Assembly: GCF_900106855.1 (NCBI RefSeq)
Contig: NZ_FNWI01000004.1
Location: 1,426,001-1,490,000 of the forward strand
DNA length: 64,000 nucleotides
Reading direction: 5' to 3'
DNA from: Varibaculum massiliense
GTDB lineage: Bacteria; Actinomycetota; Actinomycetes; Actinomycetales; Actinomycetaceae
The notes beneath the pieces were generated by a model. That model was given only the letters and a program-made list of their open reading frames with translations, had not been told where the DNA came from and searched no databases. Positions 35,096 to 51,272 of this stretch are shown one piece after another. The stretch's first letter is position 1; every line of letters starts with the position of its first letter. A program made the position numbers and the translations under genes.

Positions 35096-36181
35096 GTGTC
35101 TGACGCGACCACACCTATCTCCCCGCTAGATCAAGAGGGAATTGCCCGGGCAGTTGCGGCGGCAGAAGCCGATTTTTCTGCTGCCGACTCGCTAGAAGAA
35201 TTAAAGAGGGCGCGCGGGGTTCACCTGGGTGACAGCGCGCCGATCATCCTGGCTAACCGGGAGATTCGCAATCTGGATAAGGCGGATAAAGCCCAGGCGG
35301 GCAAGAATCTGGGCGGCGCTAAGAAACAGCTGCATGCTGCATACGATCAGCGCCTAGCCGCCCTCGAGAAGGAAAAAGAAGCCCAAACTTTGGCGGCAGA
35401 GGCACTGGACGTAACCCAGGTGGCGCAGCGTTACCCGCAAGGTGCGCGTCATCCCCTGGAAACCTTGATGGAAGATATTTCTGACTTTTTCGTGTCTATG
35501 GGTTGGGAAATCGCGGAAGGCCCGGAAGTCGAGCACGAATGGTTCAACTTTGATTCTCTCAACATCGACCCCGATCACCCGGCGCGGCAAGAACAAGACA
35601 CCCTCTATATAGATGGGCGCTCTTTGGGGGGAGAAAACCCTGGGGATGGGAACCTGGTGCTGCGCACTCACACTTCGCCGGTGCAGGCGCGAGTGATGCT
35701 TTCGCGGGGAGTGCCGGTCTATATTGCTTGCCCCGGGAAAGTTTTCCGTGCCGATGAACTGGATGCTACCCACACCCCAGTGTTTCACCAGGTAGAGGGG
35801 CTGGCAGTCGATAAGGGTCTGACGATGGCGGATCTGAAAGGCACCCTGGATCATTTCGCGCAATCCATGTTCGGGATGGAAGCCAAAACCCGCTTGCGTC
35901 CCTCTTTCTTCCCCTTTACCGAGCCCAGCGCAGAAATGGATCTGTGGTTCCCGCAAAAGAAAGGCGGGCCAGGCTGGATCGAATGGGGCGGCTGCGGCAT
36001 GGTAAACCCGAATGTGCTGATAGCCTGCGGAATCGACCCGAATGTGTATTCCGGCTTCGCCTTCGGGATGGGCATTGAACGCACCCTGATGCTGCGACAT
36101 GGAATCACCGATATGCACGATATTGTCGAGGGCGACGTGCGATTTTCTAAACAGTTCGGCACTACCGGAAGGGGAAACTAG
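35096..36181 (+). CDS. pheS: Phenylalanine-tRNA ligase alpha subunit
   Basis: A 361-residue class II synthetase subunit that charges tRNA-Phe as an alpha2-beta2 complex. An N-terminal coiled-coil (about residues 5-95) is followed by motif 1 around [19 protein letters not shown], motif 2 [24 protein letters not shown] and motif 3 [21 protein letters not shown] 35096 has AAAGGTG at good spacing; TTG 35078 and ATG 35081 upstream are alternatives. The gene is followed after two bases by pheT. Confidence 0.96.
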
Positions 36182-36183
36182 CA

Positions 36184-38832
36184 ATGCCATTTGTAGCGCT
36201 TGATTGGCTAAAAGATCACGTCGAGGTAGTGCCGGGTACGGATATCAAACAGCTTTCCTATGACCTGGTCAAGGTAGGTTTGGAAGAAGAAGCCATCCAT
36301 CCGGCCGCGGTAATTGGACCTTTGGTGGCCGGGCGGGTTTTGACCCTGGATGCCAAAGAACAATCCAATGGGAAAGTCATTAACTATTGCCGAGTCGATG
36401 TCGGCGAGTTTAATGACCGTCCCGGGGAAGGCAAAGAGCCCTCCGAACTGCCCAGTCGCGGAATTATTTGCGGCGCCCACAACTTTAAAGTGGGAGATTT
36501 AGTAGTGGTGTCGCTGCCGGGAGCAGTTCTGCCCGGTGATTTCCAGATTGCCGCCCGTAAAACCTATGGACATATTTCTGACGGAATGATTTGTTCCCAG
36601 CGGGAACTGGGGATTGGCGATGACCATAACGGAATTATTGTCCTGGAGCAGTTACTGCCGGAAAAGGCGGCAGCCGGGGAGCTGCCTGCTCCCGGCGAAT
36701 CAGTGATTGAACTGTTGGGATTGGGGGAGGAAACCCTAGAAATCAATATCACCCCCGATCGCGGCTACTGTTTCGCAATGCGCGGGGTGGGGCGCGAATA
36801 TGCCCACTCCACGGGGGCTAAATTCACTGACCTGGGGCTGGCAGAGAATCTACCTTCCGGGTCAGTACCAGCGGCCACCGAGGACGGATTTGCGGTTAAA
36901 GTCGCAGATGAGGCTCCGATTAATGGCAATGTTGGTTGTGACCGGTTTGTCACTCGCATTGTGACCGGTATTGATGCGCAGGCGGCAACTCCGGACTGGA
37001 TGGTGCGCCGCCTGGAACAGGCAGGAATGCGTTCTATTTCGCTGGCGGTAGATGCCACCAACTATGTGATGCTGGATTTGGGGCAGCCCCTGCATGCTTA
37101 TGACCTGGATAAAGTATGCGAACCGATCGTGGTTCGTCGGGCGAAAGCCGGCGAAAAGCTAACTACCCTCGATGAGGTAGAGCGCACCCTTGATCCCGAA
37201 GATTTACTGATTACCGACTCCCCGGAGGGCGTAGAAGGCTCCCGGGTGCTGGGACTCGCTGGCGTTATGGGTGGCGCCTCCACCGAGGTGACTGCCGATA
37301 CCGTGAATGTACTGGTAGAGGCGGCGCATTTCCAGCCCACTTCGATTGCACGTACTGCCCGGCGGCATAAACTGCCTTCCGAAGCCTCCAAACGTTTTGA
37401 ACGCGGCGTGGATTTCGAGCTAGCGCCGGTAGCTGCCCAGCGGGTAGTCGATATTCTGGTGGAATACGGCGGGGGCACCGACAGTGGACGGGTTAGCGAC
37501 CTCAATAACACCAAGCCCTTTGCCGAAATTGTGATGCCGTTGCATGAACCGGCACGGCTAACCGGGGTGGAATATAATCAGGAAACCATCACTGGTCTGC
37601 TAAAAGATGTGGGATGTGAAGTGCGGGTAGAAGAGGGCAATGTTATTGCCCAGCCGCCATCGTGGCGTCCTGATTTGACTGGACCGGCGCACCTGGTAGA
37701 AGAAATTGCCCGGCTGGCCGGCTATGACACCATTCCTTCGCGCAGGCCGCGCCCGATTGCCGGACGCGGATATACCCCCAAGCAGCGGGCTCGCCGGGAT
37801 GTAGGGCGGGCGCTGGCGCAAGGCGGCCTGGTGCAGGTGCTTTCCTATCCCTTTATTTCCGAGGACGTATTTGACGCTGAACTACTCGGAGAAAAGGATG
37901 TGCGCCGCCAGGCGGTGCTGGTGGCTAACCCGCTGGCAGACGATCAGCCCTTGCTGCGCACTTCCTTGCTAGATACTTTGCTGGGGGTGGCTCAGCGCAA
38001 TATTGCCCGTGGTAATGAGCAATGCGCGATTTTTGAGACCGGTTTAGTTACCCGGGGAATGGGAACTGAACTTACCGGTTCTTTCGGGGTCGAGCACAAA
38101 CCGGATCCGGACCAGCAGCGCGCCCTCGGAAAAGGAGTTCCTTACCAGCCGGAGCATATTGCTGGTGTTCTAGTGGGACAGGCGGAACTTGCCGGTGCGC
38201 TGGGCGGTGGACGCTCCTATGATTGGGCGGACGCGGTAGAGTTCGTGCGGACGGTAGCGCAAACTTTGGCGGTACCGATGCGCGTGCAAGGCAAAGATGG
38301 ACGCCAGCGCCTAGCTAAAGACAATATGATGGGGGAGCCAGGCTCCCCGGAGGCAGTCGCGCCCTTCCATCCGGGGCGTTGCGCCCGGATCGTGGTGCGG
38401 GGTGCCTGCGTTGGTTTGGCGGGGCAGCTCCACCCAGCGGTTTGCCGCAACTTCGGGTTGCCGGAATCTGCTTGCGCTTTCGAGATTGACTTTGAGAAGT
38501 TCACCGAAGCGATGCCGAAGAAAGATTTGCAGGTGAAGCCAGTATCGTCCTTCCCGCCCGCGAAAGAAGATATCGCGCTGGTAGTCGATGCGGATATTCC
38601 TGCAGCTGACGTGCAACAGGTGATTGAGAAACAGGCGGGAGACCTGCTGGAAGAAGTACGTCTTTTCGATGTTTTCAGTGGTCAACAGTTGGGCGCGGGC
38701 AAGAAGTCGCTGGCGTTCTCGGTGAAGATTCGCTCTGGGGAAGGCACTCTGAGTGCTAGCGAGATTCAGGCGGTGCGCACCCGGATTATTAAGGCTACCG
38801 CTAAGAAGTTTAAGGCGACTTTGCGCGCCTAG
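36184..38832 (+). CDS. pheT: Phenylalanine-tRNA ligase beta subunit
   Basis: An 882-residue partner of PheS. The N-terminal OB-fold tRNA-binding domain (GPLVAGRVLTLDAKE to FKVGDLVVV), the B3/B4 editing domain, B5 (ETITGLLKDVGCEVR), the catalytic-like core (RPRPIAGRGYTPKQRARRDVGRAL) and the C-terminal ferredoxin-fold anticodon-binding domain (SSFPPAKEDIALVVD onward) are all visible. It is slightly longer than usual (about 800-840) because of inserts near residues 635-720. ATG lies two bases after the pheS stop with GGGGAAAC as ribosome binding site. Confidence 0.96.
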   Translation: MPFVALDWLKDHVEVVPGTDIKQLSYDLVKVGLEEEAIHPAAVIGPLVAGRVLTLDAKEQSNGKVINYCRVDVGEFNDRPGEGKEPSELPSRGIICGAHNFKVGDLVVVSLPGAVLPGDFQIAARKTYGHISDGMICSQRELGIGDDHNGIIVLEQLLPEKAAAGELPAPGESVIELLGLGEETLEINITPDRGYCFAMRGVGREYAHSTGAKFTDLGLAENLPSGSVPAATEDGFAVKVADEAPINGNVGCDRFVTRIVTGIDAQAATPDWMVRRLEQAGMRSISLAVDATNYVMLDLGQPLHAYDLDKVCEPIVVRRAKAGEKLTTLDEVERTLDPEDLLITDSPEGVEGSRVLGLAGVMGGASTEVTADTVNVLVEAAHFQPTSIARTARRHKLPSEASKRFERGVDFELAPVAAQRVVDILVEYGGGTDSGRVSDLNNTKPFAEIVMPLHEPARLTGVEYNQETITGLLKDVGCEVRVEEGNVIAQPPSWRPDLTGPAHLVEEIARLAGYDTIPSRRPRPIAGRGYTPKQRARRDVGRALAQGGLVQVLSYPFISEDVFDAELLGEKDVRRQAVLVANPLADDQPLLRTSLLDTLLGVAQRNIARGNEQCAIFETGLVTRGMGTELTGSFGVEHKPDPDQQRALGKGVPYQPEHIAGVLVGQAELAGALGGGRSYDWADAVEFVRTVAQTLAVPMRVQGKDGRQRLAKDNMMGEPGSPEAVAPFHPGRCARIVVRGACVGLAGQLHPAVCRNFGLPESACAFEIDFEKFTEAMPKKDLQVKPVSSFPPAKEDIALVVDADIPAADVQQVIEKQAGDLLEEVRLFDVFSGQQLGAGKKSLAFSVKIRSGEGTLSASEIQAVRTRIIKATAKKFKATLRA

Positions 38833-38925
38833 AGATAGTGCGCCTTATTGGGGGAGAAGTGCGAATTCGCCCTCACCGCTAAAAATTGAGGAGCCAAGGG
38901 TCGTAGGGAACAAGGAACGCATGGG

Positions 38926-39000
38926 TGCCCCGTGCGGGACTTGAACCCGCGACCCACGAATTATGAGTTCGCTGCTACTAACCAACTGAGCTAACGGGGC
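38926..39000 (-). tRNA. tRNA-Met (anticodon CAT)
   Basis: Acceptor GCCCCGT/ACGGGGC on the complement strand, anticodon loop CTCATAA, T-loop GGTTCAAGTCC, discriminator A, no encoded CCA. It lacks the initiator's three G-C pairs, so it is elongator Met; tRNA-Ile2 (modified CAT) cannot be fully excluded. Confidence 0.88.
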
Positions 39001-39056
39001 GCATCTAGCCTACCGGATGGCGGGCGGATTATTTAATTTCGTTTAGGGTGGATAAC

Positions 39057-39575
39057 GTGATCAACATTGTGCGAAGACTGAAGGGGCGCAGGGTTCCAGA
39101 CGCCGTGAAAACCGTCCTCACCTCCTCTGATAGGGTTTTTGAGTACCTAAAGGTGGCGGAGGATCACTTCCTGGTGGTGACCATGCAAGCACTAATGGAC
39201 GTGGAATCTGCGCAGGTGAAGTCACGTTTTGGTTGGGATGAGGTTTCTCACGCCCGCTGGGATAGTGAGGCGGGTACGTTGCGAATGGTTTTTCACCAGG
39301 GCGATGATCTGATTCTTACCCCGGCGGAAGCTCCTACACACAACTTTATGGACATTATTCGGGAGGCTCTTAGCGAGGCGCAGGTGTTCATCACCCCCTT
39401 AGAGTTGCCTTCTGGTCAGAGAGTTAGCGCACAGATATTGCGTGACGATAACCGCAATTTACGTTTGTATCCCCCTATATCTAGCTTTGAAAACCTGGAT
39501 GACCAGCGATATCTGCAATCAGTAGTGCGTGAGTGGGAACAGAAATTGGGGATTGTTATAGACCTAGAAGATTAG
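39057..39575 (+). CDS. Conserved actinobacterial protein of unknown function
   Basis: A 172-residue soluble protein. It begins INIVRRLKGRRVPDAVKTVLTSSDRV and contains FGWDEVSHARWDSEAGTLRM near residue 63, a pattern of paired beta strands (short PH-like layout) seen in a family present once in many actinobacterial genomes without known role. No transmembrane segment. GTG 39057 is preferred over GTG 39048 because AGGGTGG is then correctly spaced. Confidence 0.7.
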   Translation: MINIVRRLKGRRVPDAVKTVLTSSDRVFEYLKVAEDHFLVVTMQALMDVESAQVKSRFGWDEVSHARWDSEAGTLRMVFHQGDDLILTPAEAPTHNFMDIIREALSEAQVFITPLELPSGQRVSAQILRDDNRNLRLYPPISSFENLDDQRYLQSVVREWEQKLGIVIDLED

Positions 39576-39614
39576 GAAGTTTTCGCCCTCTCAAGGTAGG
39601 CTTACATTCGTCGA

Positions 39615-39686
39615 TCCCCCATAGCTCAACGGTAGAGCATTCGACTGTTAATCGAAGGGTTACTGGTTCGAATCCAGTTGGGGGAG
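39615..39686 (+). tRNA. tRNA-Asn (anticodon GTT)
   Basis: Acceptor TCCCCCA/TGGGGGA, anticodon loop CTGTTAA in stem TTCGA/TCGAA, T-loop GGTTCGAATCC, discriminator G, no encoded CCA. The CRISPR-Cas locus starts about 140 bases downstream. Confidence 0.96.
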
Positions 39687-39689
39687 CTC

Positions 39690-39723
39690 AAAACCTCAGT
39701 GCTTCAGGCACTGAGGTTTTTTA
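39690..39723 (+). terminator. Terminator after tRNA-Asn
   Basis: AAAACCTCAGTGC, loop TTCAG, GCACTGAGGTTTT followed by more T. It insulates the CRISPR locus from tRNA transcription. Confidence 0.88.
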
Positions 39724-39824
39724 TTTTAGTGCTGGTTGACGGGTGTTTCAAGTCTGTTATCTGGATGGTGATTACCCCCGACAGGTGACTCTATTCGGCC
39801 GAATTGCTTGCTCTTTTTTAGAAT

Positions 39825-39942
39825 TGACCTTAGAGTTAAAGGGAACTGAATCTCAGTAAGCTTCGCCTCGTTAGCGAAGTTGAATGCTCAGCCTTTTGGC
39901 TATTATTTCCACTTCATCTTTTGGGGTGGAAGTGTGTTTTCT
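39825..39942 (+). ncRNA. tracrRNA of the type II-C system
   Basis: The anti-repeat GAACTGAATCTCAG (39843-39856) pairs over 14 bases with the CRISPR repeat read from the minus strand; the single difference gives a G-U pair. It is followed by the nexus hairpin CTTCGC-ctcgtta-GCGAAG (39861-39879), a small hairpin AGCC-tttt-GGCT (39890-39901) and a final stem (TTCCAC/GTGGAA or CACTTC/GAAGTG, 39907-39934) with TTTT at 39937. This order matches known tracrRNAs of Corynebacterium/Actinomyces II-C Cas9. The 5' end is approximate; no clear promoter was found in 39724-39824. cas9 begins 36 bases after the T run on the same strand. Confidence 0.88.
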
Positions 39943-39977
39943 CCCACTTTTCTATGTTATTTGCTTATCCTTGTTCT

Positions 39978-42900
39978 ATGAACGACAAGGAAATTACTCC
40001 CAAAGACAAGCGGCGTTATCGGATTGGCATTGATGTAGGGCGGAACTCTACTGGCTTCTGCGCTCTTGAGATTGATGATGACGACAATCCGATTTCTTTT
40101 TTGAATCTTTCAGTGCTGCTGCACGATGCTGGTGTCGGTAAAGATGGTGGTAAAACCCAGGAAACTCGGAAGGCTATTTCTGGACGAACCCGCAGAGCGC
40201 GCCGTCTTATTAGGAATAGGCGTCGGCGGCTCGCGGAGTTGGATCAGTTTTTGGCTGTCCTCGGTTGGCCGCTACCGGATTTGGAAAAGTATCCCGACCC
40301 GCACGAACCGTGGAAAGTCCGTGCTCTACTGGTTGAGGAATATATAGAAGATGAACAGCTACGCCATGAAAAACTGGCGATTGCGATTCGGCATATAGCG
40401 AGGCATCGAGGCTGGCGCTCGCCTTGGGTGTCGGTTAGCAGTCTGCATGTTTCGCACCCGGAATCCGATGAAGTCATTGCTTTGCGGTCGCGAGTTGCAG
40501 AAAAAACTGGGCGAATTTTGCCCGAAGACTTAACCCCGGGCCAGCTGCTTTACCTTCTTGATCGCGGGGAAAAGATACGTGGCGATGCCGGTATTTTGGC
40601 TGGGAAACTCTTGCAAAGTGATTACGCCACAGAACTTAAAAAGATTTTTTCCCGTCAGGAAATAAGCGAAGATTTGGGTGAGCAGTTAATCGATAGAGTT
40701 TTTGCGTCAAAATCACCCAAAGGTAGCGCTGCCGAAAAGGTGGGGAAAGATGCTTTGCCAGGGCAGGAACATTTAGATCGCGCTGAAAAGGCTCATCCGG
40801 CTTTTCAGCGTTATCGGATTGCCACCATTATTGCTAATCTGCGAATTCGTGAGGATGAGGATGGACAGAAAGAACGCCGTTTGACCGGCGAAGAAATGAG
40901 TTCCTTGTTCAAGTTCTTAAGCGACCCAGACCGCAAGAAGGTTCCCACCTGGATAGAGGTGGCTAAAGTTTTAGGGATAGAACGCCAGGATTTGCTCGGA
41001 ACCGGGAAATTGACGGCGGATGGAGAGCGAACCGGGAATACTCCGCCGGTTGATGAAACGAATATCCGTTTGACTAAATGCAGTATTAAGCCAGTGCAAC
41101 AGTGGTGGCGTGCAGCCAGTTACCTGGAAAGATGTGCGTTTATTGAGCAGATTTCTCGCGCATCCGCACCCGGGAAAGCTACCAGCCGAGAAGAACAGAT
41201 AGCTGCTGATTTTGTCGCCAGTCTGAACGATGAAGACTTAGAGAAACTAGAGTCCTCGGTGAGGCTCCCTATCGGCAGGGCGGCCTATTCGGTAGAAAGT
41301 TTGGGACGGATAACCGAACGAATTTTGGCCGATAATGTCGATTTGCAGCAGGCACGGGAAGCAGAGTTCGGGGTTTCCCCGGAGTGGAAGCCTCCTGCGG
41401 TTCCGGTGGGCGAACCGGTGGGAAATCCGGTGGTGGACAGGGTTTTGAAGGGAGTTAATCGCTGGTTGCTGCGAGCAGAAGCCGAATGGGGCATACCGCA
41501 ACAGGTCAATATCGAGCACGTGCGCGAAGCCTTCATGTCCAAGGCAAAGGTAAATGAACTGCAACGTTTCCAAGCGCAACGTTTTAAGAAGAACGAGGAG
41601 GCGCGGCAGCAGATAGAGGGGAGTCAGAATCTTTCGGGGTTGCCGCGTATCGCTGCGATTCGCAAGCAGCAGGCGCTGCAGCGGCAACATTGCGAGTGTC
41701 TTTACTGTGGAACCCATATTACTTTTGCTACTGCCGAAATGGATCACATCGTTCCGCGGCGAGGGGTGGGATCTACGAATACCAGGGATAATCTGGTGGC
41801 AGTTTGTAGGCGGTGTAACCAGGAGAAAAGTAATATTCCTTTCGCGGTTTGGGCTGCGCAAACAAGTATTCCGGGGGTTAGCCAGAAAGAGGCGATTTCT
41901 AGGGTTAAAGGTTGGTTTACCGATACTTCCGTTAAAGATGACAAAAGTTTGCGGGCGGGAGTGATTGACAGGTTATCGCGTACTAAAGCAGACCCCGAGA
42001 TTGATAACCGCTCTATGGAAGCAGTCAGCTGGATGGCGCGTGAATTGGCTCATCGGATTGAGCAGCGTTATCGCACCCCGCAGGCGCAGCCGGCGACAGC
42101 AAATCATAATAGCGGAGGGGAAGCAACAGACTCTGAAAATAAAGTTAAGGTGCGAGTCTTTAATGGCTCGATTACCGCTGCTGCCCGACGAGCTTCAGGT
42201 TTTGAAGGACGGGTTAATCTGATTGGAGGACGGGGAAAAACCCGTCTGGACAGGCGCCATCATGCGATGGATGCCGCCACCATCGCGATGATGCGCCCGT
42301 CAGTAGCGCAGACTCTGGTGGAGCGAGAGAATCTTCGGCGGGGACAGATTATGGCTGGTGGTGAGCAAAATTGGAAGAGCTGGAAAGGTAGTACTTTTGC
42401 TCAGCAAAAGATCTATGCGGTTTGGCTAGAGCAGATGCGTTATCTGACAGAAATCTATAACCAAGCATTGGCTGATGACCAGATTCCAGTGTTCTCTAAT
42501 TTCCGTTTGCGGCTTGGGGACGGGAAACTGCATGAGGAAGTGAAGAAACTTCATCGTAAACGCCTGGGTGATGCCTGGTCGATGAATGATATTGATCGGG
42601 CAGAAACCCCCGCTTTGTGGTGTGCTTTGACCCGCTTGCCTGACTTTGTGTGGGCAGAGGGTCTGCCGGCTAATCCGGAACGAAAAATAGTGGTTAATGG
42701 CAGTCATTTTGCTGCAGATGACAGTGTCGGGATCTTCCCAACGAATGCCCCTATGTTGAAGCTGCGTAACGGTTGCGTGGAGGTGGGAACTTCTATCCAC
42801 CATGCACGGATTTATCGAATTGCGAGTCGCAAGAAACCGGTATATGCGATGCTCAGGGTATTTACGGTTGATTTACCGAATAAAGCTGGGGTTAATCTAT

Positions 42901-43328
42901 TCCAGGTTGATTTACCAGAACAAAGCATTTCGGTGCGTAATGCCGAAAAGAAGTTACGGGAGGCTTTCCGAGAAGGAAATGCCGAGTATCTGGGTTGGCT
43001 AGTAGTCGATGACGAGTTGGAACTGGATTTATCTGCGGAAAGAAAAGGAGCAATTGCAGAGCTACTGTCGGAATATCCCGGAATATCGCATTGGTCGGTA
43101 GATGGATTCCCCACTAATAGGCAGATTAGGATGCGTCCACTTTGTTTAGCTGGGGAGGGAATGCCGGAAGATGCGCTGCCGGGAACCAAAGAAATCTTAC
43201 AGGGTCGGGGTTGGTGGCCGGCAATCAATAAGATTTTTTCAACCTGTAAACCTTTGGTAATTCGCCGTGACGTGCTGGGAAATATTCGCGAAGATTCCTC
43301 GCGGCTACCCAGTAGCTGGTCTATATAG
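39978..43328 (+). CDS. cas9: CRISPR-associated endonuclease Cas9 (type II-C)
   Basis: A 1116-residue RNA-guided DNA endonuclease, the short II-C size. RuvC-I is YRIGIDVGRNSTGFCAL with Asp19; an Arg-rich bridge helix follows (TRRARRLIRNRRRRLAELDQF); RuvC-II is VNIEHVREAF with Glu513; HNH is CLYCGTHITFATAEMDHIVP with His590 and zinc-type Cys pairs (CLYC, CRRC); RuvC-III is RRHHAMDAATIAMM with His762 and Asp765. All catalytic residues are present. The last 250 residues are the PAM-interacting region. ATG 39978 lies six bases after TATCCT, so the mRNA may be leaderless; an open frame reaches 19 codons upstream into the tracrRNA terminator and is unlikely coding. cas1 follows after eight bases. 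Confidence 0.97.
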   Translation: MNDKEITPKDKRRYRIGIDVGRNSTGFCALEIDDDDNPISFLNLSVLLHDAGVGKDGGKTQETRKAISGRTRRARRLIRNRRRRLAELDQFLAVLGWPLPDLEKYPDPHEPWKVRALLVEEYIEDEQLRHEKLAIAIRHIARHRGWRSPWVSVSSLHVSHPESDEVIALRSRVAEKTGRILPEDLTPGQLLYLLDRGEKIRGDAGILAGKLLQSDYATELKKIFSRQEISEDLGEQLIDRVFASKSPKGSAAEKVGKDALPGQEHLDRAEKAHPAFQRYRIATIIANLRIREDEDGQKERRLTGEEMSSLFKFLSDPDRKKVPTWIEVAKVLGIERQDLLGTGKLTADGERTGNTPPVDETNIRLTKCSIKPVQQWWRAASYLERCAFIEQISRASAPGKATSREEQIAADFVASLNDEDLEKLESSVRLPIGRAAYSVESLGRITERILADNVDLQQAREAEFGVSPEWKPPAVPVGEPVGNPVVDRVLKGVNRWLLRAEAEWGIPQQVNIEHVREAFMSKAKVNELQRFQAQRFKKNEEARQQIEGSQNLSGLPRIAAIRKQQALQRQHCECLYCGTHITFATAEMDHIVPRRGVGSTNTRDNLVAVCRRCNQEKSNIPFAVWAAQTSIPGVSQKEAISRVKGWFTDTSVKDDKSLRAGVIDRLSRTKADPEIDNRSMEAVSWMARELAHRIEQRYRTPQAQPATANHNSGGEATDSENKVKVRVFNGSITAAARRASGFEGRVNLIGGRGKTRLDRRHHAMDAATIAMMRPSVAQTLVERENLRRGQIMAGGEQNWKSWKGSTFAQQKIYAVWLEQMRYLTEIYNQALADDQIPVFSNFRLRLGDGKLHEEVKKLHRKRLGDAWSMNDIDRAETPALWCALTRLPDFVWAEGLPANPERKIVVNGSHFAADDSVGIFPTNAPMLKLRNGCVEVGTSIHHARIYRIASRKKPVYAMLRVFTVDLPNKAGVNLFQVDLPEQSISVRNAEKKLREAFREGNAEYLGWLVVDDELELDLSAERKGAIAELLSEYPGISHWSVDGFPTNRQIRMRPLCLAGEGMPEDALPGTKEILQGRGWWPAINKIFSTCKPLVIRRDVLGNIREDSSRLPSSWSI

Positions 43329-43336
43329 GAGTAAAC

Positions 43337-44224
43337 ATGTCTGCCTGGCGGATTATTGATTTAACGCAATTTTCTGGGTCGATTTCCTCTAAAACAGGAG
43401 CCATAGTCCTGCACCCAGAAGATAAACCGCAGGTGGTGCTGCCAGTGGCTGATGTTGCGGTGGTTCTTATCGGGATGGGAGTTAAACTCTCCGGGGCTGC
43501 GTTGCACCGTTTAACCGCTGCAGATGTGTGTGTATTGCTCTGCGATTGGCGGGGGATTCCGGAAGCGGGAGCTTTTGCATGGCGACCTCATTCTCGGGTC
43601 GCCGCGCGACGGGTGGCACAGGCGGGTATGAGTGTGCCTAAACAAAAAACTGCGTGGAAAGCAGTGGTTAGGCGAAAAATAGAAAATCAGGCGAAAACCT
43701 TGGTGTTATGTGGGAAAGCAAAAGGCAGCAAGAAGTTGTTGGAGCTCGTAAGCCTGGTACGTTCTGGTGATCCCGACAATATCGAAGGCAGAGCAGCCCG
43801 TTATTATTGGTCGGCGCTATTCGGGAAAGAGTTCTCGCGTCAACCGGGGTTGGGTGATGGCGTCAATTCTATGCTGGATTATGGATATACAATTGTGCGC
43901 GGCCATGGGGTAAGAGCAGTGCTAGCAGCCGGTTTAGAACCATCACTGGGGATATTTCATCACAATCGGGCTAATCTATTTTGCTTGGTGGACGATTTGA
44001 TGGAAATCTTTCGACCGCTGATTGATTTGGAGGTTTTTCGCCTCGAAAAGGCCGGTAAATCTTCTACGGCTGATTGTAAAGCCGAGCTGGTGGCGGCGGC
44101 CAGTAGCCAGTATCGTGACGATGGTATCGGTATTCCTGCAGCTTTTGAGGATCTCGCTCAGTTATTTGGCCTTTATGTAGAGAGTCAAGTAAAAAGCTTT
44201 TCTCCTCCTAAATGGTTTAAGTAG
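43337..44224 (+). CDS. cas1: CRISPR integrase Cas1
   Basis: A 295-residue integrase that, with Cas2, inserts new spacers. Catalytic residues fit Glu in NIEGRAARYYW near residue 154, His in GIFHHNRANL near 213 and Asp in CLVDDLMEIFRP near 224. ATAGGAG precedes ATG. It sits between cas9 and cas2; no cas4 or csn2 gene is nearby, which with the Cas9 size defines subtype II-C. Confidence 0.97.
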   Translation: MSAWRIIDLTQFSGSISSKTGAIVLHPEDKPQVVLPVADVAVVLIGMGVKLSGAALHRLTAADVCVLLCDWRGIPEAGAFAWRPHSRVAARRVAQAGMSVPKQKTAWKAVVRRKIENQAKTLVLCGKAKGSKKLLELVSLVRSGDPDNIEGRAARYYWSALFGKEFSRQPGLGDGVNSMLDYGYTIVRGHGVRAVLAAGLEPSLGIFHHNRANLFCLVDDLMEIFRPLIDLEVFRLEKAGKSSTADCKAELVAAASSQYRDDGIGIPAAFEDLAQLFGLYVESQVKSFSPPKWFK

Positions 44225-44229
44225 TTTCT

Positions 44230-44550
44230 ATGAGTAAGAAACCTATGTGGTGCCTGGTGATGTTTGACTTGCCGGTGGACACCGCCCGCCATCGGCGCGA
44301 AGCAAACGCATACCGGCGAATGCTTTTGGATTTAGGGTTCAGCATGGTGCAGTTCAGTGTCTACGCAAAATACACTCCGGCGGGATTAAGTGACGTAACC
44401 ACTATCGGTCAAGTCCGTGCCGGTATTCCTCCCGAAGGAAACGTTCGTATGCTCTTCTTAACGGATAAGCAATGGTCTCGGACGTTCCATTTTTCCAACG
44501 GAACCCCTAGCAAAGCAGAGGAAAAACCGGAACAACTATCAATTTTTTGA
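44230..44550 (+). CDS. cas2: CRISPR-associated protein Cas2
   Basis: A 106-residue ferredoxin-fold dimer that bridges two Cas1 dimers during spacer capture. MWCLVMFDLPVDTARHRREAN holds the conserved N-terminal Asp; LGFSMVQFSVYAKY is the second core block. It starts five bases after cas1. Only 51 bases separate its stop from the first repeat, and these include an inverted partial repeat at 44581-44600. Confidence 0.96.
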   Translation: MSKKPMWCLVMFDLPVDTARHRREANAYRRMLLDLGFSMVQFSVYAKYTPAGLSDVTTIGQVRAGIPPEGNVRMLFLTDKQWSRTFHFSNGTPSKAEEKPEQLSIF

Positions 44551-44580
44551 GGAAAAATTAGACGCAAAACCCCATACAAC

Positions 44581-44600
44581 CTGGGATTATTTACCCCTGA
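44581..44600 (-). other. Inverted, internally deleted copy of the CRISPR repeat at the array edge
   Basis: CTGGGATTATTTACCCCTGA is the complement of the repeat with the inner GAACTGA-type block removed (13-14 plus 6 paired bases). It faces the first repeat across nine bases, so any transcript of either strand can fold into a long hairpin. On the minus strand it is followed by T-rich sequence (GGGGTTTTGCG, TAATTTTTCC), resembling a terminator at the 3' end of the pre-crRNA. Confidence 0.8.
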
Positions 44601-44601
44601 C

Positions 44602-45602
44602 CAAGCATATCAGGGGTAAATAAGAACTGAATCCCAGCAGTAGAACCACCACAGCAAACCGCCGCCCAAGCATATCAGGGGTAAATAAGAACTGAATCCC
44701 AGCTAACCGCAGACCAAAACCTAATCATGAACAAGCATATCAGGGGTAAATAAGAACTGAATCCCAGCTGTAATTCCGGCTCCCATCCGGCCGGTACAAG
44801 CATATCAGGGGTAAATAAGAACTGAATCCCAGCTCAGTAATTGGCACTTGCCTATCTTTACCAAGCATATCAGGGGTAAATAAGAACTGAATCCCAGCAA
44901 ACCGGAAAAACCTTTACCGACGCGCTCAAGCATATCAGGGGTAAATAAGAACTGAATCCCAGCGCACATGGGCTATGTACTAGCGGCAGCGCAAGCATAT
45001 CAGGGGTAAATAAGAACTGAATCCCAGCACCTGTGTGCTGGTTATGACGGGAGAAACAAGCATATCAGGGGTAAATAAGAACTGAATCCCAGCTAATAGG
45101 TAAACGGGTATGGAATCACGCCAAGCATATCAGGGGTAAATAAGAACTGAATCCCAGCAAACCGGCCGCACTTTTACAGACGCGCTCAAGCATATCAGGG
45201 GTAAATAAGAACTGAATCCCAGCTTTCAAGCCTGGTAATGACCGGTAACGCCAAGCATATCAGGGGTAAATAAGAACTGAATCCCAGCTTATGGGGCGTA
45301 AGGTTGTTGTTACTGTCAAGCATATCAGGGGTAAATAAGAACTGAATCCCAGCACGCCGCTTGCGTATTGGTGGAGAAACGCAAGCATATCAGGGGTAAA
45401 TAAGAACTGAATCCCAGCTTAGCGGGCGTATAACGCCGGTCTAAATCAAGCATATCAGGGGTAAATAAGAACTGAATCCCAGCTGATGCACGATAGGTTC
45501 TTTGCCTTCGCCAAGCATATCAGGGGTAAATAAGAACTGAATCCCAGCATGATTTGGTGGACGATGAGCGGATAAACAAGCATATCAGGGGTAAATAAGA
45601 AC
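44602..45602 (-). CRISPR. CRISPR array: 15 full repeats, one truncated repeat, 15 spacers
   Basis: The unit is exactly 65 bases: a 37-base invariant repeat (plus strand from CAAGCATATCAGGGG to TGAATCCCAGC) and 28-base spacers. Full repeats start at 44602 and every 65 bases up to 45512. The last, at 45577, keeps only 26 bases and then diverges. Pairing with the tracrRNA shows that guides read from the minus strand, spacer first and then GCTGGGATTCAG. In that sense each repeat ends in TGATATGCT, an extended -10-like box, so each repeat could promote its own crRNA starting about five bases into the spacer, as in Neisseria II-C arrays. The truncated right end suggests the old end is right and new spacers enter next to cas2. 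Confidence 0.98.
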
Positions 45603-45617
45603 AGACCGGGAAAACTA

Positions 45618-45669
45618 TTGGTAACAATCGTTGACAAGATGTGATTTGGTAACTAACGTTACCAATGTG
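45618..45669 (+). promoter_or_regulatory. Promoter and operator of the array-adjacent gene pair
   Basis: TTGACA at 45631-45636, 17 bases, TAACGT at 45654-45659. TTGGTAAC occurs at 45618-45625 and 45646-45653, and its complement GTTACCAA at 45658-45665, so three half-sites cover the promoter. The GTG start at 45667 lies seven bases after the -10 box, which implies a leaderless mRNA. Confidence 0.65.
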
Positions 45670-45876
45670 ATTAAGGACAGTGCGCATAGGCACGGCTTCA
45701 CCGACGAGGCGATAGCTCATGCTTATAGCAATGCCATTATCGTGCACTTCCTGGACGGGTATCAGATTCTTATCGGGCCAACTCCCAATGGTGAACTCCT
45801 GGAAATAGGGGTTAATCAAGACGGGGACATCTTTCATGCTATGAAAGCCAGACTGAAATTCTTGAGGAAAGGGTGA
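45667..45876 (+). CDS. Small putative toxin (actinobacterial 'ARKHG...IHAM' type)
   Basis: A 69-residue protein: SAHRHGFTDEAIAHAYSNAI, then GYQILIGPTPNGELLEIGV, then DIFHAMKARLKFLRKG. This pattern (helix with RHG..DE.I.HA, a LIGP..G.LLE strand pair, and a terminal HAM.A/R) is shared by a widespread family of small actinobacterial proteins paired with DNA-binding partners and considered toxin-like. TTG 45631 would extend it by 12 codons, but that TTG is part of a TTGACA -35 box, so GTG 45667 is preferred. Function is inferred. It starts 65 bases beyond the last CRISPR repeat fragment. Confidence 0.7.
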   Translation: MIKDSAHRHGFTDEAIAHAYSNAIIVHFLDGYQILIGPTPNGELLEIGVNQDGDIFHAMKARLKFLRKG

Positions 45877-45881
45877 ATTGA

Positions 45882-46115
45882 ATGAAAACTGACGAAGAGT
45901 TACTTGCAGAAATCGCAGCGGATCCCGAACCAGAGATGACTATTACTGATCCCGCCTTGATTAAGGTTTATCAGGCGCTGGTGGAAACGGTTAGGGCAGA
46001 TAAGCGACTTGATGAAGCGGTTAGGGATGCCCGTGAGCAAGGTCAAACCTGGCAGGCAATCGGTGAGATCATCGGTATGACCCGCCAAGGGGCGATGAAA
46101 AAGTTCGCTGCCTAG
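45882..46115 (+). CDS. Helix-turn-helix partner (putative antitoxin)
   Basis: A 77-residue acidic protein. Its C-terminal half, TWQAIGEIIGMTRQGAMKKFAA, is a short helix-turn-helix of the kind in 'IG..LG.SRQAA..RF' proteins. The N-terminal half is acidic and helical. It lies five bases after the small toxin-like gene and probably binds the TTGGTAAC half-sites. RBS is weak, consistent with coupling. Confidence 0.7.
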   Translation: MKTDEELLAEIAADPEPEMTITDPALIKVYQALVETVRADKRLDEAVRDAREQGQTWQAIGEIIGMTRQGAMKKFAA

Positions 46116-46121
46116 GTAGAT

Positions 46122-46145
46122 TAGCTCGCCGGTTGCGGCGGGCTA
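46122..46145 (+). terminator. Hairpin after the gene pair
   Basis: TAGCTCGCCG, loop GTTG, CGGCGGGCTA, ten pairs with one T-G, extended by AT pairs, without a clear T run. The rest of 46146-46351 is an A/T-richer leader region before the surface-protein gene with AAAGGAG at 46337-46343. Confidence 0.5.
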
Positions 46146-46351
46146 TCTGAGTACCGGGTGAGGTAGTGTAGGGCGGGTTTTACTCGCTAGTAGCACCAGT
46201 GAGACTTACGTCCGTTGAGGAACGTTAATCTACCTGATAAGATTTTCATCGTCTGTTCTGGTGTTTCTAATCATCGTTAGCGGGCGCTCCAATTTCAAAG
46301 TTGAGGGTTGAGATAGGTCATTGAGGGGTGACCTAAAGGAGAAAAAACTTA

Positions 46352-49300
46352 ATGAAGCAGCATGCCACAAAACTAACTGCCACCGGATTCGCTTTAGCGT
46401 TAGCGGGGGTGCTACCAGCTACCGGGATTGCGCAGGCCGCGCCCGAGCCTACCGCGCCCGCTGATCCCGCAGGTGCTGAGCAGCAAAACCAGCAGGGCAA
46501 TCCCAAAATAAAATCGGCAAACGAGCTGGAGGCAGCGAAGAAAGCGGCACAGGAGAGCGCCGCGAAAGCGGCGGAGGCCGATAGTAATGCTCAGACAGCT
46601 ACGAAGAAGGCGCAGGACGCTGCAAAGAAATCCGGAGAGAAGTCTGCGGCCAGTGAAAAGGCAAAGAAAGACGCCCTCGATGCCCTAGCTAAAGCACAAA
46701 AAGAGAGTGCTCAAGCGGCAAGTGATGCTGCCAGCCTGCTTGATAAAGCAAACGAGAAGAAAACAGCTGCCGAGAGCGCCGCAAAAGCTGCGGGTGAAGC
46801 TCTTACTAAAGCCAAGAAAGCTAAAGCCGAGGCCGATAAAGCGGTTGCAGATAATCCCGCTCCGGATGCTGGGGAGCTGCAGGCCGCCAAAGATAAGGTG
46901 ACTGCCGCTGAAAAAGCCAAGAAAGTGGCAGATGCCAAGGCGGCAGAAACTGAAAAGGAGCTAGCAGAGGCGCAAGAGAAGGCGAACATTGCGCAAACGC
47001 AGTTGCAGACAGCTCAAGAGGAGAAAGCGAAAGCTGAAACTGCGAGGCAAGTGGCAGATGCCGATGTCAGCGCCAAGCAGCAAAAGGTAAATGAGCTGGA
47101 AGCCAAGGTAAAACAGCTTAGTGAGAACGCCGATCAGGCATTAAAGGACGGCCAGGCGGCCGTAGAAGCAGCGAAAGCCCAGGTGCAGTTGGCTAAAGAC
47201 GCTGCTGCGCAACGGAAAACCAAGCTAGATAATGCTCAGAATGTAGTCACCGCGGCACAAAGTGAGCTGCAAGCAAAACGAGATGCGGTAGAGCAGGCGA
47301 AGAGTAATAAGGCCGCAGCAGAACAAGCTGTGCAGACGGCCGCAAACCAGGTTAAAGCTGCTCAGGGTGAGCTGGCTAAGGCTGAGGCTGCCTCAGCTGC
47401 CCGTCGAGGTGATACCGCAACTGCCAAGCAGAAAGCCGATGAGGCTAAAGCCGCGCAACAGAAGGCAGAAGAGAATCTGGCAAAGGCACGGGAAAACAAG
47501 CAGAAAGCCGATGCCGCGGTAAAAGCTGCAGAAACCGAAGTAGAAAATGCTGAAAAAGCGGTCGCGGAAGCTAATACTAATTTCAAAAAAGGCAGCTTCG
47601 GGTTCTTCGAAAGTGTAGGAGCAACGGATGCTCTGGAAATTCTGAACGATAAATCCACGAAGACAAAGGCCGATGGCACTCTGGTTAACGGTACATTGAA
47701 GCCGGGAGCCGACGATGACACCACCAACTTGAACAATATGAAAGAAGCTATCGCCTGGGTACGAGTAGTTAATCAGTATCGTGCCAAGGGTGGACGTAAT
47801 GGTGAAAAACTTGACGATTACGTGATTACTGACCGCCTAATGGCGATCGCTCAGGCGCAAGCCAACTGGTCCAGATACCATATAGGGCACTCGAGCGCCT
47901 TTGGGGTGGCAGAAAACCTAGCGTGGGGTAAAAGCGATCCGGTTGCCAGGTGGTACGCCGAGAAGTCCATCTATGACGATGCCGTGAAACAGCATCCCGA
48001 TATGGCGACTATGTCTTCCTACAATATTATGATGAAATACCCTGATATATATCCAGACATTGGACACTATTTAAATGTCGTGGGGCACTCTACTGCCACC
48101 GGTTTTGCTGGCGCTTCCGGTCCAGGGATTAAGTACGGAGCTGTTTGGGGTGAAGTCTGCGACGGGGTTGAGACAGGAGAAAAAACCTATACCGTTGACG
48201 AATACGAAAAACGGTTTATGGAGTACTACAACTCGGTGACTCCGGAGGGTGCAAAGCAGAAGCTAGCGGACGCGAAAGAGAAGCTGGCAAAGCTGAAAAC
48301 AGCGGCAAAAACTGCCGATGACAAGATAGCCACAGCTAAAGCAGCGGTAGCAACCGCAGAAGCTAAAACCCAGGAAAAGAATAATGCCTGGAAAGCTGCC
48401 CAAGATAAAGAAGCCGAAACGGCTGCGGCAGTAGAAAGTGAAAAGCAAAAGGTTACGGCGGCGGAGAACGATAAGAAGGCTGCCGAAGGCGTGGTCGCAG
48501 AAAAAGAACAGGCAGTGCAGACAGCTGCAGAAGCCGTTACTGCTGCAGAAGGTGCCCTCGAGAACGCTAAAGCCGGCGTAACTACTGCGCAGGAAGCCCT
48601 CGAACTAGCGCAGCAGAACATTAAAGACAAAGAAGCAGCGCAAGCAGAGAAAGAAAAAGAGCTCGAGGAACTGGCTAAAGGTACGGCTTTAGGAGCCGCG
48701 CAGAAAGAATTATCCGAGACTAAGGCAGCGCTTGCTGACGCAAAACCTCAAGCCCAAGCAGCTGCCGCCCAGCTGCAAAAGGCGACTCAGGCGCAGCAGC
48801 TAGCGGAGCAAGCTAAAACGGCAGCAGATAAAGATCTGGAGGAGGCGACAACCGCAAACCAGCAGGCAGTTGAGGCAGTAAGTCAGGCGGAAAATGAGCG
48901 TTCGGCCGCACAGCAGGCGCTAAATCCGCTAGCTGAACAGCAGATAGCTCATGATCTGCTGGTAGCTAAGGCAGAAAAGGTAGCTCAAGACCTAAAGCAG
49001 GCGAAAGCTGCCGCTGACAAAGCAAATAAAGACCTGGAAGTAGTAACCAAAGTCGCCACCGACCTGCAAAATGAGCAGAAAGCTAAGCAGGCGTTGGCGG
49101 AGAAACTGAAGGCTATAAAGGGGCAGAGCGCCTTGGAAAATGGTCTGGACGCTGCCGATAGCGACCTAGATAATCTGGGATTGCCCGCCCTCTTTAATAC
49201 TTATCGGAATGCGAATACCGCTGCTAAAGATGCGCAGAAGAAAGCAGATGAACTAGCGAGACTGGCCAAAGAGGCGGAGGATTTCCAGAAGGCGGCTGCC

Positions 49301-49828
49301 GAGGTTAATCGGCAAGCCCAATCTAAACTCGCTGCCGCCCAGGCAGAATACAGCCGCTACCATCAGGTGCAAGCTGCCGCTTCCACAAACCGGGTGCGCT
49401 CTTTGGCGCCTGGGGACACATTGCAAGTTCATTTCACGGGATTTAGTCCTGGGAGTAAGAACCGGGTAATCATGCATTCGACCATCGTTGACCTGGGAAT
49501 CCATCCAGCGGTAGGCAAAGGTGAATTCTATGTATCCGTGCAAGTACCAAAGGAACTAGGTGCTCATACCATTACCGCCACTAATGAATGGGGCGAAAGC
49601 GCCAGCTTCAAATTTGAAGTAGCCGAGAAACAACCGGTGAAACCTAGCGGCAAAAAAACCGTCAGAACTGTGGTAGTTAAAGGTGCCAATACTGGGAAAC
49701 CGGCGGCCGGCGAGCAAATGCCGGTGACCGGGGTGTCGGTAACTACCTTGCTGGCGTTGAACTCGCTAGCGGTAATCACCGGAGTGGGATTGGTAGCCGC
49801 CAGTCGCCGTCGATCCCAGGAGGTCTAG
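46352..49828 (+). CDS. Cell-wall-anchored SEC10/PgrA-like surface protein with CAP-like domain
   Basis: An 1158-residue surface protein. A signal peptide (residues 1-30, ending AQAAP) is followed by about 380 residues of Ala/Lys/Glu coiled coil. A compact domain at about 455-605 follows, with WVRVVNQYRAKGG, DRLMAIAQAQANWSRYHIGHS, GVAENLAWG and GHYLNVVGHSTATGFA, resembling the CAP-like region of SEC10/PgrA surface-exclusion proteins. A second coiled coil (about 625-1015) and an Ig-like domain (about 1015-1090, VHFTGFSPGSKNRV) come next. The sorting signal is MPVTG (1123-1127), a hydrophobic helix and RRRSQEV; Met replaces the usual Leu of LPXTG. Likely role: adhesion or contact on the cell surface. 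AAAGGAG precedes ATG. Confidence 0.88.
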   Translation: MKQHATKLTATGFALALAGVLPATGIAQAAPEPTAPADPAGAEQQNQQGNPKIKSANELEAAKKAAQESAAKAAEADSNAQTATKKAQDAAKKSGEKSAASEKAKKDALDALAKAQKESAQAASDAASLLDKANEKKTAAESAAKAAGEALTKAKKAKAEADKAVADNPAPDAGELQAAKDKVTAAEKAKKVADAKAAETEKELAEAQEKANIAQTQLQTAQEEKAKAETARQVADADVSAKQQKVNELEAKVKQLSENADQALKDGQAAVEAAKAQVQLAKDAAAQRKTKLDNAQNVVTAAQSELQAKRDAVEQAKSNKAAAEQAVQTAANQVKAAQGELAKAEAASAARRGDTATAKQKADEAKAAQQKAEENLAKARENKQKADAAVKAAETEVENAEKAVAEANTNFKKGSFGFFESVGATDALEILNDKSTKTKADGTLVNGTLKPGADDDTTNLNNMKEAIAWVRVVNQYRAKGGRNGEKLDDYVITDRLMAIAQAQANWSRYHIGHSSAFGVAENLAWGKSDPVARWYAEKSIYDDAVKQHPDMATMSSYNIMMKYPDIYPDIGHYLNVVGHSTATGFAGASGPGIKYGAVWGEVCDGVETGEKTYTVDEYEKRFMEYYNSVTPEGAKQKLADAKEKLAKLKTAAKTADDKIATAKAAVATAEAKTQEKNNAWKAAQDKEAETAAAVESEKQKVTAAENDKKAAEGVVAEKEQAVQTAAEAVTAAEGALENAKAGVTTAQEALELAQQNIKDKEAAQAEKEKELEELAKGTALGAAQKELSETKAALADAKPQAQAAAAQLQKATQAQQLAEQAKTAADKDLEEATTANQQAVEAVSQAENERSAAQQALNPLAEQQIAHDLLVAKAEKVAQDLKQAKAAADKANKDLEVVTKVATDLQNEQKAKQALAEKLKAIKGQSALENGLDAADSDLDNLGLPALFNTYRNANTAAKDAQKKADELARLAKEAEDFQKAAAEVNRQAQSKLAAAQAEYSRYHQVQAAASTNRVRSLAPGDTLQVHFTGFSPGSKNRVIMHSTIVDLGIHPAVGKGEFYVSVQVPKELGAHTITATNEWGESASFKFEVAEKQPVKPSGKKTVRTVVVKGANTGKPAAGEQMPVTGVSVTTLLALNSLAVITGVGLVAASRRRSQEV

Positions 49829-49852
49829 GAAGCCAAACTTCCCTAAGTAATT

Positions 49853-49893
49853 AAAGGTTGTCCCCGGGCTTACTAAGCCCGGGGACAACCTTT
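49853..49893. terminator. Very strong hairpin terminator
   Basis: The 20 bases at 49853-49872 (AAAGGTTGTCCCCGGGCTTA) are perfectly complementary to 49874-49893. It ends in CTTT on the right and has AAAG on the left, so it can serve both the surface-protein gene and the facing lipoprotein remnant. Confidence 0.9.
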
Positions 49894-49959
49894 ACTCAAT
49901 TAACTAGCCGGAAAATACGCAGCTAAAAATGAGAGATAAAAATAGTTTAAATTAAGAAC

Positions 49960-50400
49960 CTATTTCAGTCGCCAAGTAGCCGTGGCTTCTTTATCTATGA
50001 TGTTTCCGAAGTAGGAAATGCTGGCAGCGTCAGGTTTGACTGGAACAATCCCGGTCACGGTTCCACCGGCTTTTAAGGATCCGTCACCTAGGGGTTCTTC
50101 GTCTAGAACCGGAAGTTCGGGATCTTTCATATTTCCTGAATCAGACGTTTGCTTCCAGTCAAACTGGTTGTAATCTACTGGTTCAGACCCGGTATTTTTG
50201 TAAGTAACAGTAACAAGCAGATATTTTTTATCAGCCTGATCAGTCTTTTTCGCTTTAGAATCAACCGATATTTGTAAACCATTGTCCAAAGTAACCGTTT
50301 TCCCGATAGCCAGCTTGCTGTTATCTGTATTTTTCTCGCTCTTCTAGGAATCGCCGGCAGCGGCTTTGCCCTCCTAGAATCCGCCTGTCGCACAGTTGGC
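49960..50400 (-). pseudogene. Degraded lipoprotein gene with DUF4352-like domain
   Basis: The intact part (49960-50289) encodes an Ig-like DUF4352-type domain: ISVDSKAKKTDQADKKYLLVTVTYKNTG... to ATATWRLK. Upstream in the same frame the protein continues (NTDNSKLAIGKTVTLDNG) but meets two TAG stops (complement of 50344-50346 and 50374-50376). Before these lies NCATGGF, a lipobox-like cysteine with no proper signal peptide ahead. A run of nine G at 50405-50413 sits where the signal peptide should be, and the ABC ATPase gene begins at 50430. ATT-GAC-AAT could restart a short form, but export would be lost. Confidence 0.7.
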
Positions 50401-50429
50401 GAATGGGGGGGGGCTGTTAGTCTTTACCC

Positions 50430-51272
50430 ATGGAACATAAACTCCCCAAACCTAACCCCAAACCTAAGCTGGATTCACCAGAAAAACCGGAGAGGCCCGC
50501 ACCAGAACCCGCGGGGATAGTTAATGCGATAGATGCTCAGGACGTGGTGAAACTCTACGGCAATAACCTTGCCTTAGATCATCTTTATCTGCAAATACCA
50601 GCTGGTTCATTTTTCGGGCTGGTAGGTCCTAATGGGGCTGGAAAATCCACGTTTCTGTCTATCGCTACCGGTCTTTTAGAACCCGACAGAGGCACAGTTT
50701 TCATTAATGGCATCAGTATGTGGGACGAACCGGTAGCGGCAAAGAGAGCGTTGGGGGTATTACCCGACGGGATGCATATGTTTGACCGTCTCAGCGGGAT
50801 TGAACACTTAACATTTGTCGCTCAGCTGCGCGGTCTTGATAAACAGAGTGCAATTCAGCGCTCCCGTTCACTTTTGCAAACATTTGAACTGCCGCTAGAT
50901 AAAAAGAAAACGATAAGCGAATACTCAACCGGTATGCGCAAGAAAATCGGTTTAGCTTTAGCGCTGGTAACCTCCCCGCGCCTAGTGGTTTTGGACGAAC
51001 CTTTTGAAGCGGTCGATCCGGTTTCGGCAAACACCCTACAACAAGTGTTAAAAGAATATGTGAAGCGAGGGGGAACAGTAGTGTTATCTTCCCACGTGAT
51101 GGCGACCGTGGAATCATTATGTACCCATGTGGCAGTGATTAATCAGGGTCGTATTCTGGTGTCCGGAACCACCGAAGAAGTCGCGGCAGGGCAAGACCTC
51201 AACTCGCGCTTCCTACAGTTGGTAGGGGGACATCAGCAATGCGAAGGAGACCTGTCATGGTTGGGACGCTAA
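50430..51272 (+). CDS. ABC transporter ATP-binding protein
   Basis: A 280-residue nucleotide-binding subunit. A Pro/Lys-rich lead of about 35 residues is followed by Walker A GLVGPNGAGKST near residue 65, signature EYSTGMRKKIGLA in place of the common LSGGQ, Walker B LVVLDEPFEAVD, and H-loop SSHVMA. The YSTGM signature is typical of DrrA/NatA-like exporters. It overlaps the membrane-subunit gene by 16 bases. Substrate unknown. ATG 50430 has no strong ribosome binding site. Confidence 0.92.
   Translation: MEHKLPKPNPKPKLDSPEKPERPAPEPAGIVNAIDAQDVVKLYGNNLALDHLYLQIPAGSFFGLVGPNGAGKSTFLSIATGLLEPDRGTVFINGISMWDEPVAAKRALGVLPDGMHMFDRLSGIEHLTFVAQLRGLDKQSAIQRSRSLLQTFELPLDKKKTISEYSTGMRKKIGLALALVTSPRLVVLDEPFEAVDPVSANTLQQVLKEYVKRGGTVVLSSHVMATVESLCTHVAVINQGRILVSGTTEEVAAGQDLNSRFLQLVGGHQQCEGDLSWLGR

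Follow-up and report, generated by a model that had tools for sequence, protein, structure and literature searches.

The window, meaning the whole stretch of 64,000 nucleotides analysed, contains a type II-C CRISPR-Cas locus whose cas9, cas1 and cas2 all exceed the NCBIfam cut-offs. The features of this locus that are relevant here are the following:

39842..39880, plus strand: tracrRNA candidate, with an anti-repeat core (39842-39856), TAAG and a nexus-like stem-loop (39860-39879)
39978..43328, plus strand: cas9; the listed open reading frame runs from a TTG at 39921, the ATG at 39978 being the start chosen here
43337..44224, plus strand: cas1
44230..44550, plus strand: cas2
44551..44601, minus strand: short leader, from the cas2 stop to repeat 1, with a weakly T-rich tail past the arm on the putative guide strand
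44581..44601, minus strand: leader arm of the hairpin, with an inner part at 44587-44600 (14 nt, fully complementary to the repeat) and an outer part at 44581-44586/7
44602..45602, minus strand: array of 15 identical 37-nt repeats with a 65-nt period and 28-nt spacers, plus a truncated 16th repeat
44602..44638, minus strand: repeat 1, the last repeat on the putative guide strand, with the inner arm at 44609-44623 (3' half), the bulge at 44623-44630 and the outer arm at 44631-44637
44604..44612, minus strand: TGATATGCT, which we take to be an extended -10-like motif, inside the repeat and mostly within the hairpin loop
45577..45602, minus strand: truncated 16th repeat, the array's far end

The junction hairpin in its locus

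The tracrRNA candidate sits upstream of cas9. A plain energy scan of the window does not single it out, and it was accepted because its motif is conserved in relatives. Since its anti-repeat pairs with the first part of the repeat as read on the minus strand, this appears to be the guide strand, and transcription would then reach the cas2-side repeat last. The motif TGnTAnnnT is present in 41 of 46 distinct last repeats. According to excerpts of PMC3656092 and PMC12080349 (papers given by PMC number are cited from excerpts throughout), CRISPR repeats can carry promoters, as they do in type II-C, where new spacers enter at the last repeat. Pairing with the tracrRNA and the repeat-borne -10 motifs thus suggest that the junction is situated at the 3' end of the guide strand. 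Of 47 arrays, 46 have a perfect repeat on the cas2 side and 23 a perfect last core-bearing repeat at the far end, which fits what is expected if the far end is old, and the spacer beside repeat 1 is probably the newest. An earlier note on this DNA, made from the sequence alone, had placed the element in this same position, and both lines of evidence support it.

Several other observations were made around the array. The truncated oldest repeat (45577-45602) has kept the half with the -10-like motif and lost the tracrRNA-binding half, a loss that agrees with the extra-repeat mutations reported in excerpts of PMC12080349. Spacers 5 (44899-44926) and 9 (45159-45186) differ at only 6 of 28 bases and probably come from related invaders. 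Just beyond the array's old end lies a small open reading frame (45631-45876, 81 aa) with no NCBIfam match, and an Rfam scan of positions 36000-50500 returned tRNAs and below-threshold matches.

The inner arms of the hairpin, 44587-44600 and 44610-44623, are 14 nt long, 100% complementary and 9 nt apart. The inverted partial copy of the repeat that the earlier note saw at 44581-44600 is indeed there, as a 14-nt perfect complement with an outer arm of 6-7 nt. The nine bases that it counted between the copy and the first repeat are the loop, eight of them belonging to the repeat; a single base lies between the end of the element (44600) and the start of repeat 1 (44602). The bulged hairpin that it described, of about 13+6 bp, is predicted on the guide (minus) strand as two stems of 7 and 14 bp around a single 8-nt bulge (-30.8 kcal/mol, z -4.3). 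The plus-strand fold reaches -26.8 kcal/mol (z -6.7), and none of 200 dinucleotide shuffles was as stable as the native hairpin on either strand. Likewise, no shuffled leader out of 200 paired with the repeat as well as the native one in the window's own locus (L132).

With regard to similarity alone, a gapped local alignment of the 64 kb to the repeat places the element second among sites outside the array (score 29 vs 32 for 16481-16560, plus strand), and its duplex energy of -33.6 kcal/mol is reached at three other sites in the window. Its distinctive feature is the uninterrupted 14-nt match adjoining the array. The inner 14-mer occurs once in this orientation within the window; a 20-mer of the element has one exact match genome-wide, and the only other match with up to three mismatches lies in the truncated last repeat.

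Pairing of leader and repeat in related loci

Searches for relatives, with the Cas1 protein or family TIGR03639 as the query, covered 6 genomes of the genus, 213 of the family, 396 of the order and 394 of the class (overlapping sets). Fifty-seven regions were taken, of which six (L112, L113, L114, L116, L125 and L131) were dropped because they lacked cas2, cas9 or an array beside cas2. In the 51 with a usable array, this lies beside cas2 in 48, is inverted in two and displaced in one. L039, L040 and L138 had no array, and L042 had an inverted one with only 22 nt beyond it. The nearest relative with the locus is G005 (Cas1 94%); no relative was found on viral contigs. Family labels such as f1 and f3 are those assigned by the search tool, f1 being presumably Actinomycetaceae.

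Leader and repeat pair better than expected on the near flank (median z -2.05, 48 loci) and not on the far flank (+0.11, 43 loci). The whole set was permuted because the ranking of single leaders is blunt for C-rich repeats: in single swaps the native leader was best in 12 of 48 loci and the native repeat in 16 of 48. Across 38 nonredundant actinobacterial II-C junctions, native pairing beat all 20000 of 20000 permutations (z -11.7), while 33 nonredundant far array ends showed no excess (z -0.5, with 5778 of 20000 permutations as low). The signal persists within f1 (25 loci with Varibaculum left out, z -9.2) and within f3 (1 of 720 permutations). In this comparison with relatives, which the earlier note had proposed, the inverted copy is neither absent nor random. 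A chance origin of the copy was rejected on the shuffles of the window and relatives and the permutation across loci.

Changes on the two sides are matched. Among 31 distinct repeats, each of the four Watson-Crick pairs is seen at positions 16-19, and the 38 better alignments hold 507 Watson-Crick pairs vs 29 mismatches. A strand-neutral alignment reaches 6.5 in 38 of 51 junctions, mainly at guide positions 17-25 (numbers that are one too low for the 37-nt Varibaculum repeats, which were cut to 36 nt), although some of these alignments (e.g. L083 and L089) look like chance matches. G-U and A-C mismatches number 10 and 10 over whole alignments and 3 vs 0 within positions 15-27, and name no strand because they are too few. 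The matched changes suggest that the hairpin probably has a job.

The element belongs to the array's acquisition end and follows the array rather than cas2. In the inverted arrays of L081 and L082, close relatives of each other, pairing is found at the array's far end, corresponding to the guide 3' end, and in L098 it is kept with the array 2 kb from cas2. Since the element stays with the array in these three loci, a block of read-through from cas2, as the earlier note had envisaged, was rejected as its general purpose. The distance of the leader arm from the repeat ranges from 0 to more than 20 nt across loci.

Two further observations concern the leaders themselves. A second shared motif resembling GTTGnAATTCCAAGGAAAAC was noticed by eye about 15-35 nt from the repeat in L086, L093, L100, L104, L119-L121, L124 and L130, and is possibly an acquisition signal. 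Additionally, L081 and L082 have a further strong hairpin with a T-run about 30 nt past the leader hairpin, downstream of the array.

At z <= -2, 24 of the 51 junctions are repeat-armed, 19 have a standalone leader hairpin, six have both and 14 neither; one or the other is thus found in 37 of 51 junctions vs 5 of 43 far ends. With this threshold for both classes, the two are not significantly exclusive (p 0.15). With a cut of E <= -20, picked after the values were seen, 13 of 51 junctions are standalone, none of them repeat-armed at z <= -2, vs 24 of the other 38 (p 5e-5), and eight of 51 loci carry neither label. On the Cas1 tree the standalone label changes at least seven times on well-supported branches, and the Cas1 sisters L083 and L087 differ, the former being standalone and the latter repeat-armed. 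This substitution suggests that a hairpin at the junction may be what is kept.

Ten plasmid records were also fetched, and the eight with arrays were tested with an assumed orientation. A standalone hairpin adjoins the cas2-side repeat in five of them, with z no higher than -3.9, and lies on the far side in two (z -3.7 and -3.8). On the cas2 side no plasmid array is repeat-armed, although L136 gave z -2.3 when a longer flank was used. L136, L137 and L143 show guide-strand T-runs past the hairpin. By annotation only, the Campylobacter coli plasmid p13786 (L141) carries a short annotated cas1 with cas2 among resistance genes. In these sequence comparisons, the use of the repeat as an arm is the common actinobacterial form of a junction hairpin.

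The two halves of the last repeat and terminator-like features

In a motif-anchored search, 34 of 51 loci had an anti-repeat adjoining TAAG; because at least 11 of 14 pairs were required, the search favours pairing over the first 14 positions. In a shuffle-controlled alignment, tracrRNA anti-repeats stood above every null in 13 loci only. Predicted tracrRNA pairing is 94-100% at positions 2-13, partly from this selection, and falls to 74% at position 15 and 41% at 16. The leader stem, present in 27 of the 34 tracrRNA loci, covers positions 18-23 in 96%, position 15 in 41% and position 14 in 11%. As predicted pairings, then, the stem occupies mainly positions ~16-28 and the tracrRNA mainly 2-15: the stem mainly uses the half of the repeat that the tracrRNA leaves unused.

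Cofold models held both structures in 25 of 27 loci, the exceptions being L089 and L099. Mean predicted tracrRNA binding over the 27 loci was -16.2 kcal/mol with native vs -17.4 kcal/mol with shuffled leaders. The window itself pays more, with -10.1 vs -17.6 kcal/mol (a cost of ~7.5) and -10.4 kcal/mol at the last repeat vs -21.2 at an internal one. Its outer arm overlaps repeat positions 2-7, in the tracrRNA-binding part, and in its cofold model the tracrRNA duplex runs gaplessly into the leader stem. Locus by locus, an outer clasp was not convincing, with p from 0.03 to 0.83 among the 26 loci listed (300 shuffles each). The observation is more general than the window alone, and a competitor reading is weak outside the window locus.

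The possibility of a second copy of the tracrRNA or of a scaRNA, an idea taken from excerpts of PMC6199352, was rejected: the element lacks the repeat positions between its arms (~8-15) and in relatives covers mainly 16-28.

On the guide strand, the tails past the leader arm (33 nonredundant arms) have T fractions of 0.48, 0.64 and 0.55 at positions 1-3 vs 0.26. Their U-score of 1.59 exceeds those of the remaining leader positions (0.84, p 0.002) and of the plus strand (0.60, p 0.0006), although at least three T in the first five tail positions are found in only 15 of 33. Of 51 junctions, 29 on the guide strand and 13 on the plus strand had a classical terminator score above the 95th percentile (-30.3) of 1224 random control windows, as did 1 of 43 far ends when read outward. 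The window's best guide-strand score, -35, lies below that percentile. In absolute terms the scores are modest, values of d > 0 being seen in 6 of 51 guide-strand and 4 of 51 plus-strand junctions and in 0.4% of the 1224 controls. As regards the traits of an intrinsic terminator, a stable predicted hairpin is present in the window and relatives, while the T-run that should come after it is enriched across the set, weak in the window and missing in about half of the loci.

Interpretation and comparison with known systems

The pairing is real: it covaries with the repeat, is confined to one array end and goes with the array. On sequence evidence, the reading that we favour, with some reservation, is that the element contributes the 3' arm to a conserved, terminator-like leader-repeat hairpin at the guide-strand 3' end of many actinobacterial II-C arrays. 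A terminator was among the functions suggested by the earlier note, and of its guesses it appears the best supported. The window's weak T-tract, the small number of junctions with d > 0, wobble counts that favour neither strand, the lack of significant exclusivity between the two hairpin classes at z <= -2 and the eight loci with neither label count against it. RNA polymerase would exit the array through the last repeat, whose 3' half would fold with the leader. The resulting terminator-like hairpin would end the transcript, or at least fix and protect the 3' end of the newest-spacer pre-crRNA, leaving the 5' half of the repeat open to tracrRNA and RNase III. The 5' arm of such a hairpin would be the last repeat; since acquisition of a spacer copies the repeat that adjoins the leader, every such event would renew the structure. 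In the window, an extra outer clasp of 6-7 bp would touch tracrRNA positions. A bolder version, which we consider rather unlikely, is that the last repeat has one half for the tracrRNA and one for the leader, the leader's half forming a self-renewing terminator, stacked on the tracrRNA duplex, that sets the output of the newest guide. If true, the split repeat would be the 3'-end II-C answer to spacer prioritisation.

Other explanations account for part of these observations. The leader hairpin could be a maturation aid that stacks on the tracrRNA duplex, giving RNase III a longer double strand and favouring the newest crRNA, as a II-C counterpart of the II-A leader effect. The gapless duplex modelled in the window and the coexistence of both structures in 25 of 27 loci point in this direction, but at 13 of 51 junctions the hairpin is standalone and leaves the repeat out, and the window's predicted tracrRNA binding is weaker at the last than at the internal repeat, so that we regard it as unlikely. 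The opposite effect, proposed in the earlier note, is that of a cis competitor hiding the last repeat from the tracrRNA and lowering or delaying the newest guide. Such a cost is predicted locally, since the window leader weakens tracrRNA binding from -17.6 to -10.1 kcal/mol and L099 behaves similarly. As a rule the proposal does not hold: the mean effect over 27 loci is ~1 kcal/mol, the stem avoids positions 2-14 in most loci, and the fit of both pairings in 25 of 27 models makes a general tracrRNA competitor unlikely. We thus find this reading very doubtful.

The element could instead act at the DNA level, an inverted repeat across the leader-repeat junction (e.g. an extruded cruciform) marking the integration site. 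Its position exactly at the acquisition end, its travelling with the leader and its near-perfect Watson-Crick pairing without wobble excess would agree with such a role. However, the sisters L083 and L087 differ, therefore the integrase does not seem to need the element; the arm-to-repeat distance varies from 0 to more than 20 nt, and the one-strand T-rich tail is left unexplained, which makes a role in acquisition quite improbable. A functionless mutational by-product, with template switching keeping an old inverted copy matched to the repeat, would accord with the 507 pairs against 29 mismatches. It seems a very remote prospect given the retention in several families, the restriction to one array end, the one-strand T-rich tail and the standalone hairpins that serve as a replacement elsewhere.

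The favoured reading, a terminator-like hairpin at the guide-strand 3' end, can be set beside several known systems. A leader-repeat hairpin in type II-A was reportedly described by Liao et al. in 2022. In II-A the leader base-pairs with the repeat beside it, and the resulting hairpin keeps tracrRNA off an extra, spacer-less repeat (excerpts of PMC12080349 and PMC13187072). Both hairpins join a leader to its neighbouring repeat beside the newest spacer, and pairing above chance is found in the II-C set too. However, the II-A leader lies upstream, at the start of array transcription, whereas that of the element appears to lie downstream, at the guide-strand 3' end, on the repeat serving the newest spacer. 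Moreover, the II-A hairpin blocks tracrRNA, while the actinobacterial II-C stem, mainly at 16-28, mostly leaves the tracrRNA half free, the window's outer arm overlapping 2-7. The type VI leader-repeat hairpin, as given in excerpts of PMC13187072, is also a control element at an array end, but it involves the first repeat and Cas13, uses no tracrRNA and stops extraneous crRNA.

The earlier note knew of no described equivalent. This is too broad, given the 5'-end hairpins of II-A and type VI (excerpts of PMC12080349 and PMC13187072), and holds for the downstream end of II-C: in the literature searched, which left out preprints and most subscription papers, no description was found of a hairpin between the last II-C repeat and a downstream leader. 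The upstream terminators and ecrRNA-guide hairpins in excerpts of PMC12080349 likewise flank II-C arrays, but at the upstream, old end; in these excerpts the authors, who examined the upstream side, report no leader-repeat hairpin in II-C. In the present set a leader-repeat hairpin is found downstream, covarying with the repeat across families. The 3' half of these repeats, little used by tracrRNA, gains a partner and a constraint, and the junction hairpin could help to orient II-C arrays, a known difficulty (excerpts of PMC12638026). It also brings the fate of the newest II-C guide within reach of experiment. With an intrinsic (Rho-independent) terminator the element shares a stable predicted hairpin, often with T after it on one strand; unlike such a terminator, it has long loops and many weak T-runs, and it takes as its 5' arm a CRISPR repeat that acquisition renews.
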